This document shows positions 12,771 through 18,841 of a stretch of DNA of 64,000 bases, piece by piece. A model generated the notes under the pieces. That model saw only the letters and a program-made list of their open reading frames with translations. It ran no database searches and had not been told where the DNA came from. Numbering within the stretch: the first letter of the stretch is position 1; each line of letters begins with the position of its first letter. The stretch comes from Micromonospora pattaloongensis (GTDB lineage: Bacteria; Actinomycetota; Actinomycetes; Mycobacteriales; Micromonosporaceae): positions 496,001 to 560,000 of the forward strand of contig NZ_FNPH01000002.1 in assembly GCF_900107255.1 (NCBI RefSeq). Direction: 5' to 3'. A program made the position numbers and the translations under genes.

Positions 12771-12973
12771 TTGTTTAGCAGAAAACGCGGGTAGGGCGGC
12801 GATTTTCCGGAAGGACACGCCGAAGGACCTCGTACAGATGTTTGAAACTGTCCGATGGCACCGATACGGTCTTGGACACCGACGCCGGTGCGCCTTCGCG
12901 GCAAACGCGGCGTCGAACGCAGCGACGCACCACGAGCCGCCAAGGCACTCACCGCCGACCAGGGAGGACGGAC

Positions 12974-13774
12974 GTGTCGACCGACGACCGGACGAGCCGG
13001 CAACATCACCCGGAGAAGACCGCCGCCAAGACCACCGCGCCGGCGGCGTCGGGTGGCCGACGGCGGAGCCCGAGCCGGTCCCGCAGCGCGCAGCCGCAGC
13101 TGCGGCCGGTGACGCCGGTGGTCAGCGCCTTCCCCGACCCCGTCACCGTGGACCTGACCGCGCGCCAGCGCCGCATCCTCGAGTTCATCCGCGACTGGGT
13201 GGAGCGCTACGGCTACCCGCCGAGCGTGCGTGAGATCGGCGAGGCGGTCGGGCTGGTCTCCCCGTCGAGCGTCGCCTACCAGCTCAAGGAGCTGGAGCGG
13301 AAGGGGTTCCTCCGCCGCGATCCCAACCGCCCGCGCGCGGTGGACGTACGTCCCCCCAGCGAGCTGGTCGACGACGAGACCGTCCGCGCCCAACGCCCGA
13401 CCCCGGCGTACGTGCCGATGCTCGGCCGCATCGCCGCCGGTGGGCCGATCCTCGCCGAGCAGGCCGTCGAGGACGTCTTCCCGCTCCCCCGCGAGCTGGT
13501 CGGCGAGGGCGAGGTCTTCATGCTGCAGGTCAAGGGCGACTCGATGGTCGAGGCGGCGATCTGCGACGGCGACTGGGTGGTGGTGCGGCAACAGCCGACC
13601 GCGAACTCGGGCGAGATCGTCGCGGCGATGCTCGACGGCGAGGCGACCGTGAAGACCTACCGGCGGCGCGACGGGCACGTCTGGCTGATGCCCGCCAACC
13701 CGGCGTTCGACCCGATCGCCGGCGACGACGCGACCATCATGGGCCGGGTCGTCGCGGTGCTCCGCCGGATCTGA
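12974..13774 (+). CDS. lexA: SOS repressor LexA
   Basis: LexA represses DNA-damage genes and cleaves itself when bound to RecA filaments. The 266-residue form has a disordered, Ser/Arg/Pro-rich N-terminal extension of about 58 residues. The winged helix follows ([12 protein letters not shown] to KELERKGFL), then the Ala-Gly cleavage bond in GRIAAGGPI, the catalytic serine in [10 protein letters not shown] and the lysine in [11 protein letters not shown]. The GTG at 12974 follows GGGAGGAC; a longer frame from 12842 lacks support. It is transcribed away from nrdR. Confidence 0.95.
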
Positions 13775-13792
13775 CCCGTCCCCCGCGACATT

Positions 13793-13835
13793 CACAAAGG
13801 GGCGGCCCCGCCATCGGCGGGGCCGCCCCTTTGTG
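13793..13835. terminator. 20-bp perfect bidirectional terminator
   Basis: CACAAAGGGGCGGCCCCGCC (13793-13812) pairs with 13816-13835 around the 3-base loop ATC. A's on one side and T's on the other make it work in both directions. It separates the converging lexA and membrane-protein genes. Confidence 0.9.
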
Positions 13836-13843
13836 CGGCTTCG

Positions 13844-15625
13844 TCAGCGGTAGCCGTCCCCGTTGTCCGGATAGCCGCCGCGCCGCCCGCGCGGCGGCCC
13901 GTACACCCCGGCCCGGTTGTCGTCGTACTCGTCGTCATCCCGCCGGCGATCGCCCGGAACGCCGCCACCGCGGCCGGCCCGGTAGTCCTCGTCAGGGCGC
14001 TCGACGCGCCCGTAGCCCCCGCCCGCCGGCTGACCGCCGTAGACCCCACCCGACGGCGGGGCGGGTCGCCGCGACGCCGGCTGACCGCCGTACACGCCCG
14101 GCTGCGGGCCACGCGGCGCGCCGCCCACCGGCTCGGAACCCGGGCCGCCGCCGTACACGCCGCCGCGCTGCGGCGCCGCCGGCGCACCGCCGGGCTGCGG
14201 CGCCGGCGCGCCGCCGTACACCCGGCCGGGCGCCGGGGTGGGCCCACCCGTGGCGCCGTAGACCGGACCGCTGGGCTTGCCGCCGTAGACGCCGCTGGGC
14301 TTGGCCGCCGGCGCGGCGCCACCGTAGACCGCGCCGCCCGGCCTACCGCCGTCCGGGCCCGCGCCGTACACACCGCCGGCGCGCTGGCCCGGACCGGCCC
14401 GCTCCGGGCCGCCCTCGTCCCACCCGGGCTCCGACTGCTCCCCCCGGTCCGGCGCGCGCACCGCGGCGCTCGCCGTGCCGCGCACCGGCTTCGGGCCGTC
14501 CTCACCGTCGACGTCGTCGGCCGGCGGCTTGCGGCGGGCGCGCACGATCCCGTAGATGCCGGCCCCCACCAGGATCGCGCCGATGATGCCCACCGCGCCG
14601 ATCAGGTAGTTGATGTCCTGCAGCGTGAGGGTGCTGAACCACGACTGATCGCTGCTGGCATCGGCGGCCGTGCCGGCGGCGGTGGCGATGGTCGTGGCGG
14701 GCGTGTAGCGCTGGACGACGACCGGTTCGTCCCCGGGCAGCGACCCCACGTCCGAGACGGTGACGAAGAACCTGCCGTCCCGCGTGTACGTGATCGCCTC
14801 ACCGAACGCGTCGGCGAGCGGCGTGACCCGCGGCGTGCCGGTGGTGAGCGCCTTGACGATGTCGCCGTTGGACACGTCCCACTCGAACGCGTCGGCGTAG
14901 CTGCGCAGCACGACGCGCGTCCCGTCCGGCGAACGCGCCGCCCCGGTGACGGGGAGCCGGCCGGTCGCGGCGAGCGCGTTCGGGGTGTTGGTCTTCGGGA
15001 GCGAGACCTCGCCGACCTTCTGCAACGGCACCGGCGTCTCGTTGTTCTTCTTCAGCGGCGCCGACGGGGTGTAGATCTCGGCCTTGCCGAGATTCTTCGT
15101 GATGATGATCGGCGTGCCGTCGTCGGCGATCAGCAGCGCTTCCGCGTCGTGCGGCCTGCCCTGCGGATAGCTCACCCGGTGGATCACCGGGGCGGCGGAG
15201 CCGGCGACCGGCATGCTCCAGAGCGCGACCCTGGGCCGGCGCTCGGCAGAGGTGGCGTTGTCACCGATGTCGGCGATCCACAGCGTCTTGCCGTCGGGCG
15301 AGAGCGCGAGGTCCTCCGGGTCCAGCGGCGAGGTCGGGAAGTCTCTGGTCTTGCTGACCCTGCAGCCGCTGTTGAGGAAGAAGACCGGCTTCTTGCCCGG
15401 ATCGTCGGTGCTGTCGTTGATCACGAGGTAGCCGTTGGCGAGCGCGACGATCCCCGAGATCTCGCGCAGACGCTCGTCGCTGACCGTGCAGACCTTCGTC
15501 GGCTTGGCGCGCGGCGCGGCGTCGCCGGACGGCGCCGGCGCCGGGGCGGCGTGCGCAGGGCCCGCGAGAAGGAAGAGGCCGACCAGCGCGGATGCCACCA
15601 TGGCCGAGGACAGAACACGCCGCAT
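13844..15625 (-). CDS. secreted/membrane protein: propeller-like ectodomain, one TM helix, VYGG-repeat tail
   Basis: The 593-residue protein has a signal peptide (residues 1-27, ending AGPAHA). A beta-propeller-like ectodomain covers about residues 45-325, with SPDGKTLWIADIGDN and SPDGTRVVLRSYADAF as blade-like strands. One membrane helix (about 336-358, YLIGAVGIIGAILVGAG) is followed by a basic stop-transfer ARRKPP. The cytoplasmic tail of some 235 residues is Gly/Pro-rich, with nine VYG(G/A/P) units, and ends in Arg/Asp/Tyr-rich repeats. No catalytic motif is evident. It stands alone between lexA and hflX. It could be a sensor or surface scaffold; function unknown. Confidence 0.8.
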   Translation of the reverse strand: MRRVLSSAMVASALVGLFLLAGPAHAAPAPAPSGDAAPRAKPTKVCTVSDERLREISGIVALANGYLVINDSTDDPGKKPVFFLNSGCRVSKTRDFPTSPLDPEDLALSPDGKTLWIADIGDNATSAERRPRVALWSMPVAGSAAPVIHRVSYPQGRPHDAEALLIADDGTPIIITKNLGKAEIYTPSAPLKKNNETPVPLQKVGEVSLPKTNTPNALAATGRLPVTGAARSPDGTRVVLRSYADAFEWDVSNGDIVKALTTGTPRVTPLADAFGEAITYTRDGRFFVTVSDVGSLPGDEPVVVQRYTPATTIATAAGTAADASSDQSWFSTLTLQDINYLIGAVGIIGAILVGAGIYGIVRARRKPPADDVDGEDGPKPVRGTASAAVRAPDRGEQSEPGWDEGGPERAGPGQRAGGVYGAGPDGGRPGGAVYGGAAPAAKPSGVYGGKPSGPVYGATGGPTPAPGRVYGGAPAPQPGGAPAAPQRGGVYGGGPGSEPVGGAPRGPQPGVYGGQPASRRPAPPSGGVYGGQPAGGGYGRVERPDEDYRAGRGGGVPGDRRRDDDEYDDNRAGVYGPPRGRRGGYPDNGDGYR

Positions 15626-15688
15626 CAGATCAGTGTCGCACGTTCGGCGCGTCCAGCGCGGAACGCCGTGATCGATTACGCAGTGTGA

Positions 15689-17131
15689 TCAGCCCAGGGT
15701 CGCGCCGTGCCGGGCGAGTTCGGCGGCGAGCGCCTCGTCGACCCGCACGTGCAGCTCCGTGCCGTGTTCGGTGTGGGTGGTGCGCAACACCTCGCCGCGG
15801 CGGTGCACCTCCGCCACGAGATCACCCCGGTCGTACGGCAGCGTCACCCGCAGCTCCACCGCGGGCCGCGGCAGCCGCGCCTCGATCGCCCCGCGCAGCC
15901 CCTCGATACCGCGCGCGGCGCGGGCCGAGACGAAGACCGCGTCCGGCCAGAGCCGCTTGAGCCGCAGCAGCGTCTCCTCGTCGGCCGCATCGATCTTGTT
16001 GACCACCAGCAGCTCCGGCACGCTGTCCGCGCCGACCTCGGTGAGCACCTCGCGCACCGCCCGCACCTGCTCCTCCGGATCCGGATGCGCCCCGTCCACG
16101 ACGTGCACGACGAGATCCGCGTCGGCGACCTCCTCCAGCGTCGAGCGGAACGCCTCGACGATCTGGTGCGGCAGGTGCCGGACGAAGCCGACCGTGTCCG
16201 ACAGGGTGTAGACCCGGCCGTCGGCCGCGTGCGCCCGACGGGTGGTCGGGTCGAGGGTGGCGAAGAGCGCGTCCTCGACGAGGACGCCCGCGCCGGTGAG
16301 GCGGTTGAGCAGGCTGGACTTGCCGGCGTTGGTGTAGCCGGCGATCGCCACCGCGGGGACGGCGTTGCGGGCGCGTCGGGAGCGCTTGGTCTGACGTACC
16401 GTGCGCATGCCCTTGATCTCGCGGCGCAGCCGCGCGATCCGCGTCCGGATGCGGCGCCGGTCGGTCTCCAGCTTGGTCTCACCGGGACCGCGCAGGCCGA
16501 CGCCGCCGCCGGCGCCGCCGACCCGGGCGCTACCACCGGCCTGCCGGGACAGCGCCTCACCCCAACCGCGCAGCCGCGGCAGCAGGTATTCCAACTGGGC
16601 GAGCTCGACCTGCGCCTTACCCTCCTTGCTCTTCGCGTGCTGGGCGAAGATGTCGAGGATCAGGGCGGTCCGGTCGATCACCTTGACGTTGACCGACTGC
16701 TCGAGGTTGCGCAGCTGCGACGGGGAGAGCTCGCCGTCGCAGATCACGGTGTCGGCGCCGGTCGAGACGACCACGTCGCCGAGCTCGGCGACCTTGCCCC
16801 GCCCGATGTACGTGGCGGGATCGGGCCGCCCGCGCCGCTGGATCAACCCTTCGAGGACCTGCGAGCCGGCCGTCTCGGCGAGCGCGGCGAGCTCGGTGAT
16901 CGAGTTCTCCGCGTCGGTGACGCTGCCGTCCCACACCCCGACGAGCACGACCCGTTCCAGCCGCAGCTGCCGGTATTCGACCTCGCTGACGTCGGCAAGC
17001 TCCGTGGAGAGCCCGGCTACCCGCCGCAGGGCGTTACGGCTCTCGAGTTCGAGCTCTCCCGTGGTGGCGTCGACCTCGTCGACGCGGTCCGGGAAGGAGA
17101 TCGTCGAGTCATCGGTCCGGTTTGTGCGCAA
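15689..17131 (-). CDS. hflX: ribosome-associated GTPase HflX
   Basis: HflX binds 50S/70S ribosomes and rescues or splits stalled ones, notably under stress. The 480-residue protein has the HflX N-terminal domain (YIGRGKVAEL, VKVIDRTALILDIFAQHA) and a helical linker with the Gly-rich GGVGLRGPGETKLETDRR. The GTPase domain has G1 GYTNAGKSS (about residue 265), G3 DTVGFV and G4 NKID. I chose the TTG at 17131 because CGGAGGAGG lies just upstream; a longer frame reaching 17194 lacks such a site. Its expression context is single-gene. Confidence 0.92.
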   Translation of the reverse strand: MRTNRTDDSTISFPDRVDEVDATTGELELESRNALRRVAGLSTELADVSEVEYRQLRLERVVLVGVWDGSVTDAENSITELAALAETAGSQVLEGLIQRRGRPDPATYIGRGKVAELGDVVVSTGADTVICDGELSPSQLRNLEQSVNVKVIDRTALILDIFAQHAKSKEGKAQVELAQLEYLLPRLRGWGEALSRQAGGSARVGGAGGGVGLRGPGETKLETDRRRIRTRIARLRREIKGMRTVRQTKRSRRARNAVPAVAIAGYTNAGKSSLLNRLTGAGVLVEDALFATLDPTTRRAHAADGRVYTLSDTVGFVRHLPHQIVEAFRSTLEEVADADLVVHVVDGAHPDPEEQVRAVREVLTEVGADSVPELLVVNKIDAADEETLLRLKRLWPDAVFVSARAARGIEGLRGAIEARLPRPAVELRVTLPYDRGDLVAEVHRRGEVLRTTHTEHGTELHVRVDEALAAELARHGATLG

Positions 17132-17329
17132 AAGCTTCCTCCTCCGCCCTCGATCGTGACACGCGCGGCCCGCCGGCGCATCCACAAATCCCACGCGGCC
17201 CGTTTCCGCGCGCCACGCCGGGAATGAGGTGACTCACCGGTAACCAGGGCGGCACGCGACGCGACGGCGGGCGGGTAAGAATTGCCGGGCGGGCCGATCG
17301 GCCGCGCACACCGCAACCGGAGGATTTAC

Positions 17330-18841
17330 GTGGCGACCACCCGCCTACCGAGTGCCGGATTTTCCATCACGATCCGGATCAGCATCACCGCCGACGCGTC
17401 CGCGATCGGGCGGCTGACCACCTGCGTCGGCGAGGCCGGGGCCATCGTCACCGCGCTCGACGTCGTCGACTCCGACCCGTCCAGCGTGATCGTCGACCTC
17501 ACCTGCGACACCGCCGACTCCGCCCACGCCGACCAGGTCGTCAAGGCGCTCGACGCGCTGGAGGGCGTCGAGGTGCGCAAGGTCTCCGACCGCACCTTCC
17601 TGCTCCACCTCGGCGGCAAGATCGAGGTCAACTCGAAGGTGGGCCTCCGCACCCGCGACGAGTTGTCCCGGGCCTACACGCCGGGCGTCGCCCGGGTCTG
17701 CCTGGCCATCGCCGAGAACCCGGCCGACGCCCGACGGCTGACGATCAAGCGCAACACCGTCGCCGTCGTCACCGACGGCACCGCGGTGCTCGGCCTGGGC
17801 AACATCGGTCCGGCCGCGGCCCTGCCGGTCATGGAGGGCAAGGCCGCGCTCTTCAAGCGCTTCGGCGGGGTGGACGCCTGGCCGGTCGTGCTCGACACCC
17901 AGGACCCGGACGAGATCGTGTCGATCGTCAAGGCGATCGCGCCCGCGTACGGCGGGATCAACCTGGAGGACATCGCGGCGCCGCGCTGCTTCGAGATCGA
18001 GGCTCGGCTGCGCGAGGCGCTGAACATCCCGGTCTTCCACGACGACCAGCACGGCACCGCGATCTGCGTGCTCGCCGCGCTGACCAACGCGCTGCGCGTG
18101 GTCGGCAAGCGGCTGGCCGACGTCCGGGTGGTGGTCTCCGGCGCGGGCGCCGCCGGCACCGCGATCATGAAGTTGCTGCTGCGGCAGGGCGTCGGCGACA
18201 TCATCGCGTACGACCGGCCGGGCGCGCTGCACCGCGGCATGGAGGGGCTGAACTCCGACTGGCAGTGGCTCGTCGACCACACCAACAAGGAGAACTACGC
18301 CGGCGACCTGCGCGGGGCGATCCGGGGCGCGGACGTGTTCATCGGGGTGAGCGCGCCCAACCTCCTCACCGGCGACGACATCGCCACCATGGCGGAGAAC
18401 TCGATCGTGTTCGCGCTGGCGAACCCCGACCCGGAGGTCGACCCGCGGGAGGCGCGCAAGCACGCCGCGGTGGTCGCGACCGGCCGCTCCGACCAGCCGA
18501 ACCAGATCAACAACGTGCTCGCCTTCCCCGGCGTGTTCCGCGGCATGCTCGACGCGCACGCGGAGGAGTTCACCGAGGAGATGGCGCTCGCGGCCGCGCG
18601 GGCGATCGCGGACGTGGTCGGGGAGGAAAAGATCAACCCGACCGTCATCGTGCCGAGCGTCTTCGACCCGCGCGTCGCGCCGGCGGTGGCCGCGGCGGTG
18701 CGCGCCGCCGCCCAGGCCGCCGCCGCCTCGGCCACCTCCGGCGCCACCTCGCCCGCGTCGGCCGGCGCCCCATCGGGCGCGGGCGCGCCCGCGACGGACC
18801 CGGTCGGGGACGAGCCGGGCACGCTGCCGACCCACCCCTGA
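17330..18841 (+). CDS. NAD-dependent malic enzyme with N-terminal ACT-like domain
   Basis: The enzyme decarboxylates malate to pyruvate. Of 503 residues, about the first 85 resemble an ACT regulatory domain (ITADASAIGRLTTCVGEAGA). The malic domain follows (SRAYTPGVARVCLAIA, PVFHDDQHGTAICVLA) and then the NAD-binding domain with VVSGAGAAGTAIMKLL. The last 45 residues are an Ala/Ser/Pro-rich tail without known role. The GTG at 17330 follows CGGAGGA, preferred over an upstream in-frame ATG. A hairpin terminator follows the stop. Confidence 0.93.
   Translation: MATTRLPSAGFSITIRISITADASAIGRLTTCVGEAGAIVTALDVVDSDPSSVIVDLTCDTADSAHADQVVKALDALEGVEVRKVSDRTFLLHLGGKIEVNSKVGLRTRDELSRAYTPGVARVCLAIAENPADARRLTIKRNTVAVVTDGTAVLGLGNIGPAAALPVMEGKAALFKRFGGVDAWPVVLDTQDPDEIVSIVKAIAPAYGGINLEDIAAPRCFEIEARLREALNIPVFHDDQHGTAICVLAALTNALRVVGKRLADVRVVVSGAGAAGTAIMKLLLRQGVGDIIAYDRPGALHRGMEGLNSDWQWLVDHTNKENYAGDLRGAIRGADVFIGVSAPNLLTGDDIATMAENSIVFALANPDPEVDPREARKHAAVVATGRSDQPNQINNVLAFPGVFRGMLDAHAEEFTEEMALAAARAIADVVGEEKINPTVIVPSVFDPRVAPAVAAAVRAAAQAAAASATSGATSPASAGAPSGAGAPATDPVGDEPGTLPTHP

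Follow-up and report, generated by a model that had tools for sequence, protein, structure and literature searches.

The gene that lies between hflX and lexA in Micromonospora pattaloongensis raises the question of what an exported domain might do when it is joined, through one membrane helix, to a long repetitive tail. The window analysed here is a stretch of 64,000 nt (NZ_FNPH01000002.1, positions 496,001-560,000 of the forward strand), to which coordinates refer unless another locus is named. A first-pass annotation of the same DNA had not recognised the architecture, and no named family with the same layout and role was found in Pfam, NCBIfam, PHROGs, PDB sequences, or the papers searched; among the papers listed, none dealt, by its title, with the hflX-linked propeller-TM-tail protein. 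This protein is real, conserved, and uncharacterised, and no new class of system is demonstrated by it.

Layout of the protein and its exported domain

The 593-aa protein (Table 1) has a single match in its parent genome, namely itself, and homologues are present in 49 of the 61 genomes searched, its own included. The structure prediction that the first-pass annotation had proposed was run with AlphaFold2, and the domain model contains five four-stranded blades (20 strands, residues 43-307; mean pLDDT 82, pTM 0.76). With the signal peptide and this model at hand, the earlier wording of an exported, propeller-like domain can be sharpened to a predicted five-bladed propeller, based on the strand count and on re-ranking by VIA-align among the families in the match list. 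In the Foldseek ranking by itself, WD40 and other propellers come out on top (TM scores to the query, 0.32-0.43). After re-ranking, the glutaminyl cyclases 2iwa (Z 17.4, rmsd 4.0, 225 residues) and 3mbr (Z 17.4, rmsd 3.4, 215 residues) are at the top, along with the C-terminal domain of Escherichia coli YjiK (3qqz; Z 17.0, rmsd 3.9 over 220 residues), and the designed Pizza6 proteins come next (Z 14.4). The structures 2iwa, 3mbr, 3nok, and 3qqz are taken here to be five-bladed.

Table 1. Annotated features of the window around the propeller gene
Feature	Coordinates	Strand	Basis or remark
Propeller-TM-tail protein gene	13844..15625	-	Open frame; ATG at 15625, stop at 13844; 593 aa plus stop
Signal peptide, residues 1-26	15548..15625	-	Sequence; cleavage site by eye
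Five-bladed propeller (predicted), residues 40-310	14696..15508	-	AlphaFold2 and structural matches
Membrane helix, residues about 340-361, with G346/G349/G356	14543..14608	-	AlphaFold2 models
RARRK positive cluster, residues 362-366	14528..14542	-	Sequence
Disordered Gly/Pro/Tyr/Arg-rich tail, residues 364-593	13847..14536	-	Full-length model and composition
Nine-VYG stretch, residues 419-576	13898..14371	-	Sequence count
hflX, upstream on the same strand, 63 bp gap	15689..17194	-	TIGR03156, E 1e-134; start codon as listed
lexA, convergent neighbour	12842..13774	+	TIGR00498, E 1.7e-73; start codon as listed

For the 593-aa protein, Pfam and NCBIfam gave nothing above cut-off. The Phytase-like family PF13449 scored 17.2 bits at full length and 19.6 bits with the domain only, below its gathering cut-off of 27.6, and was matched at E 0.01 or better by 21 of the 28 relatives scanned (best 9.9e-9). 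Among 246 genomes from the class, 122 match a profile of the propeller domain. Seven residues (D102, E104, D119, D122, E162, R241, and E276) are kept in 88-99% of the 78 rows of the alignment, as those of a binding site would be. E104, E162, and E276 each lie at, or immediately ahead of, an equivalent strand and would thus sit near one face of the central channel, a placement derived from the strand list rather than from coordinates.

A single helix followed by the tail, as described earlier, is also what the full-length AlphaFold2 model predicts, with the helix spanning residues 335-364, followed by the RARRK cluster and 230 aa of tail. Judged from the signal peptide, the positive-inside rule, and the Cys pair, the propeller would face outward and the tail the cytoplasm. 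The RARRK cluster would keep the tail cytoplasmic, and Arg/Lys residues follow the helix in the other tailed copies listed as well. The only two Cys residues of the protein, C46 and C88, are both located in the exported domain; 22 of 115 homologous domain stretches, some of which are duplicates or fragments, contain none.

The 230 aa from residue 364 onward comprise 63 Gly, 37 Pro, 25 Arg, 17 Asp, and 14 Tyr; the full-length model has no structure beyond this residue, with nearly the whole tail below pLDDT 50. The first-pass reading of this part was accurate, including the nine VYG units (six of them VYGG) and the C-terminus, ...DNGDGYR. Shuffling the letters of the tail 100,000 times yielded 0.25 VYG on average and five at most. 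In the genome, 53 DNA sites could code for VYGG versus 29 for the reversed control pattern, and the six within 300 bp in the window tail form the only dense cluster; just one further pair is spaced within 100 bp, in the gene of a CarboxypepD protein (L217, see below). Chance or artefact as the source of the tail was rejected on the basis of the shuffles and of the frame being conserved in relatives. An orphan or recent DNA expansion was likewise rejected, given the synonymous variation among the nine units and the family-wide occurrence of tails.

The hflX-lexA locus and the tailed copies

The gene neighborhood was compared over the best 80 of 352 related loci in the genome collection, mainly from Micromonospora, with others from Plantactinospora, Phytohabitans, Salinispora, Verrucosispora, and Spirilliplanes. 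In all 80, as in the window, hflX is located upstream on the same strand, and a convergent lexA follows downstream in 69, the other 11 being stretches too short for it. In two of the 80, the distance between the end of the hflX frame and the open frame is larger, 620 bp in L032 and 1308 bp in L034. The wider gene order is miaA-dapF-malic enzyme-hflX-propeller-lexA-nrdR-nrdJ. The gap to hflX, estimated from start codons, has a median of 63 bp and is below 100 bp in 89 of 128 loci, a crude estimate, as several of its rows clearly use wrong starts and a few genomes enter it twice. The propeller gene is probably co-transcribed with hflX; the link between the propeller protein and HflX is positional only. 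In a genome outside the order (L215), hflX also adjoins a propeller gene. In another locus outside the family (L164), hflX (14628-16103) and a tail-less propeller frame (13607-14635), both on the minus strand, share 8 nt, an overlap that points to translational coupling there.

A sigma-70 promoter scan of positions 13700-17400 found none, and the sole terminator-like site falls inside the propeller gene. SOS control via a LexA box was considered and rejected: a scan with a consensus pattern returned 64 sites with one or two mismatches versus 49.6 expected, none of them exact, and 4 of 100 shuffles reached 64. The sites nearest to the propeller gene are two-mismatch sites within it, at 14716 and 14741.

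The tail is associated with the hflX-linked copy. In the clade of the window protein, whose own low-complexity tail exceeds the 80 aa after the helix used as threshold, 39 of 39 hflX-linked copies carry a tail of at least 81 aa (range 81-387 aa), with hflX seen beside 39 and lexA beside 36. Thirty-five of these come from the 37 genomes of the own family, with every tail at least 87 aa long (the 95 aa of L012 being cut by a contig end); one more family genome was added by the profile search, and three copies, with tails of 81, 147, and 387 aa, stem from two other families of the order. The Micromonosporaceae label for genomes of this wider set was inferred from the named relatives. Two genomes of the own family are exceptions: G001 seems to have a tail-less unlinked copy only, and no copy was found in G024, which is 80% complete. 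By the same measure, the tails of 12 same-family paralogues at other loci reach 3-38 aa. Outside the clade, eight hflX-linked copies have tails of at most 45 aa or no helix was found in them, and unlinked copies elsewhere have tails of at most 23 aa where a helix was found. In one genome (L190, G026:C243), a tail-less paralogue flanked by dapF and the malic enzyme gene is only two genes away from the hflX-linked tailed copy.

On the 78-row tree, tail presence needs three changes versus a mean of 26.5 for shuffled labels. The pattern fits one gain of the tail in the ancestor of a 51-row clade (support 99) followed by two losses in paralogues, on a tree built by a quick method with a midpoint root and with weak support for 26 of its 75 inner branches. 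That the tail might be absent from all relatives, the outcome named at the outset as a refutation, is contradicted by its retention in every linked copy of the clade. The long disordered tail is a long-kept feature of the hflX-linked copy.

The membrane helix shows a related distribution. The pattern G..G.{6}G, represented by G346/G349/G356 in the window protein, occurs in 36 of 39 tailed copies, where shuffles of the same letters predict 3.25. Of the 12 tail-less paralogues from the same family, three have it, as does one of the 16 other unlinked copies with a helix, and all seven linked copies without a tail lack it; since many tail-less rows of the 78-row alignment end before the helix, it was counted separately on helices. 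Fisher's test of tailed copies against same-family paralogues gives p = 1.3e-5, uncorrected for kinship or for the choice of the pattern, which was made after the alignment had been viewed. Such glycine spacing is a feature of tightly packed helices, and the helix may pack against its own copies. Of the 12 paralogues nested in the clade, nine have neither tail nor Gly pattern. The best hint of a role for the tail in an assembly is this joint fading in most paralogues; as the 39 tailed copies belong to one clade, tail and pattern could also be co-inherited without a functional link, against which the nine nested paralogues speak.

Constraint and turnover in the tail

The variation of the tail was followed in 67 named relatives, i.e. 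the best 80 of 352 loci minus 11 tails cut by a contig end and minus two Micromonospora loci (L046, L071). In the latter two, the propeller frames share an odd terminal peptide, CGISQTWPSRRR, as if from another reading frame; frameshifts are the probable cause, either from sequencing or as real changes of frame within the tail. The survey of repeat number that the first-pass annotation had called for gave 3-7 VYG per tail (mean 5.1) at tail lengths of 115-328 aa, with a correlation of 0.26 between the two.

From 66 of these relatives (one further tail was dropped due to unreadable letters), 177 close pairs were compared. Median dN/dS is 0.22 for the tail versus 0.25 for the propeller, and mean dS is 0.61 versus 0.32, i.e. 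twice as high in the tail, a sign of either misalignment or faster change. Across the aligned cells, the Tyr of VYG is identical in 95.3%, compared with 89.9% for the remaining Tyr of the tail, the Gly in 97.0% (other tail Gly, 86.5%; Arg, 89.1%), and the Val in 90.1% versus 38.1% for other tail Val, the sharpest contrast. The same residue is encoded by a different codon in 20% of the VYG Val cells and 28% of the VYG Gly cells. The alignment of a low-complexity tail pairs motif with motif and omits gaps, which flatters both dN/dS and motif conservation. Given this bias, the high dS of the tail, and the non-independence of the pairs, more weight is placed on the VYG counts.

Across the wider set of 39 tailed copies, at least one VYG is present in 30 tails, at least three in 18, and none in nine, and four tails (L014, L025, L030, L173) hold two Tyr or fewer. 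Repeats of the YGQQ and YPP type replace VYGG in some of them (L020, L023, L026, L027). The earlier emphasis on Tyr-Gly repeats finds support in the lineage of the window, where the Tyr and Val of VYG are well kept, and does not extend to the nine VYG-free and four Tyr-poor tails. As VYG is missing from some tails and the letters turn over, the shared trait of the slot is the long disordered tail, and VYG is one lineage's version of it. Taken at sequence level, the tail seems to be under constraint while its letters turn over between genera.

Possible roles and comparison with known systems

Tentatively, and short of calling it probable, the protein is best read as a binding propeller of the envelope with a self-packing helix and a sticky cytoplasmic tail. 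The exported five-bladed propeller would bind or read a candidate ligand outside the membrane, and the glycine-patterned helix would pack against copies of itself. The tail would supply repeated VYG 'stickers' among Gly/Pro/Arg-rich spacers, and the protein would form multivalent clusters, or a docking scaffold, beneath the membrane. This scaffold reading draws on the association of the tail with the hflX-linked copy, the tree, dN/dS, the narrow number of VYG units, the Gly pattern, and the conserved propeller residues. Against it stand the well-kept other Tyr, Arg, and Gly residues of the tail, the nine of 39 tails that lack VYG, the Cys-less domains, the G001 genome, and the alignment bias. 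Clustering would proceed via the tail, and the condensate proposed in the first-pass annotation is a fair, if hypothetical, form of it; the Tyr phosphorylation suggested there is hypothetical as well.

Self-assembly would be unneeded if the tail were a docking strip, in which a specific cytoplasmic partner with a small pocket recognises each VYG and gains avidity from the repeats. A short, well-kept core within drifting spacers and a narrow number of units are what such a strip might look like, and conserved C-termini, such as the GDRY of many Micromonospora tails, resemble linear motifs. However, other genera swap in YGQQ/YPP-type or Tyr-poor repeats, with which a fixed pocket would have to co-evolve, and docking of this kind is considered rather unlikely, though a serious competitor. 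Less likely still is a tail that serves as an entropic spacer, or that is low-complexity sequence expanded in a GC-rich genome and has little function tied to its exact letters. A high GC content makes codons for Gly, Pro, Ala, and Arg cheap, the length (81-387 aa) and composition of the tail turn over between genera, and the paralogues manage without it; yet VYG lies far above the shuffles, dN/dS is about 0.22 (with the alignment caveats given above), every linked copy of the clade has a tail, and no other dense VYGG cluster exists in the genome.

It is improbable that the propeller acts as an enzyme (lactonase, cyclase, or esterase-like) and that the tail only regulates or places it. Fold neighbors include glutaminyl cyclases, lactonases, and SMP30, acidic positions are conserved in the propeller, and PF13449 ('esterase-like activity of phytase') shows sub-threshold kinship, with E values no higher than 0.01, to 21 of 28 family members, but fold alone is no proof of function, and the window protein, at 17-20 bits, falls short of the 27.6 cut-off. 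That a condensate of the tail gathers HflX and stalled ribosomes at the envelope upon an outside signal read by the propeller is very improbable; if true, it would mean a link from the envelope to ribosome rescue, and a lexA-adjacent slot that is filled by a different outer domain in another lineage.

The locus offers a natural experiment, with the same propeller bearing a tail at one locus and lacking it at others in the same genomes, to which the Gly pattern of the helix adds by mostly coming and going alongside the tail. Should the tail cluster, as the scaffold reading has it, the protein would be a simple system for asking what disordered tails do in bacteria.

Similar layouts are found both in the same genome and elsewhere. 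The CarboxypepD protein mentioned above (L217, 622-2958, minus strand, G000:C24) shares with the window protein a signal peptide, a helix, and a long Gly/Tyr tail with VYGG, here a GYG-rich tail of 436 aa with two VYGG units; it differs in its outer domain (CarboxypepD_reg, PF13620) and in its end, DWLDD. Relatives of this protein (L223-L241) occur in 19 of 41 genomes, its own included. Twelve of the 19 frames end exactly in DWLDD, three in close variants (L226, L230, L236), three otherwise (L238, L240, L241), and one is cut (L235). Its own genome contains four DWLDD-coding sites, of which only that of the CarboxypepD protein is C-terminal, and there DWLDD is probably a linear docking motif. 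A C-terminal motif common to propeller and CarboxypepD tails was considered and rejected, with only L030 (IDWLDDLR) being similar and the other listed tails lacking DWLDD.

A genome of mycobacterial type holds, convergent to lexA, a protein (L161, 6519-8696, minus strand) that likewise has a signal peptide, one helix, and a long low-complexity tail. Its outer domain consists of LGFP repeats (PF08310) instead of a propeller, and it was rejected as an orthologue, the propeller profile having no match in this lexA-adjacent stretch. The slot is presumably that of Rv2721c/MSMEG_2739. One source counts Rv2721c among the envelope proteins of Triton X-114 extracts (PMC2874799), and another tabulates it, at -0.5, with the proteins that change on overexpression of the PknB PASTA domain (PMC4632501). 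The occurrence of this type of tail twice in one genome, and again by lexA elsewhere, suggests a reusable part that may be placed on unrelated exported domains. The Mycobacterium tuberculosis membrane transporter Rv1747 also has a disordered cytoplasmic region reported to cluster, and the protein is reported to phase-separate (PMC9312465); it differs from the window protein in its FHA domains and phosphorylation by PknF and is an analogy only.

Regarding the outer domain, the likeness to PF13449 is a weak sequence kinship of the propeller, seen in 21 of 28 family members scanned; the window protein stays below the curated cut-off, and the Pfam name is silent on the membrane helix or tail. The glutaminyl cyclases 2iwa, 3mbr, and 3nok and YjiK (3qqz) match at Z 16.6-17.4 and rmsd 3.3-4.0 over 212-225 residues with 7-14% identity (7-9% to the cyclases), a likeness of fold alone and confined to the propeller. 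As a whole, an exported domain with a single helix and a disordered repetitive tail is a known kind of protein, and the window protein is a new version of it.
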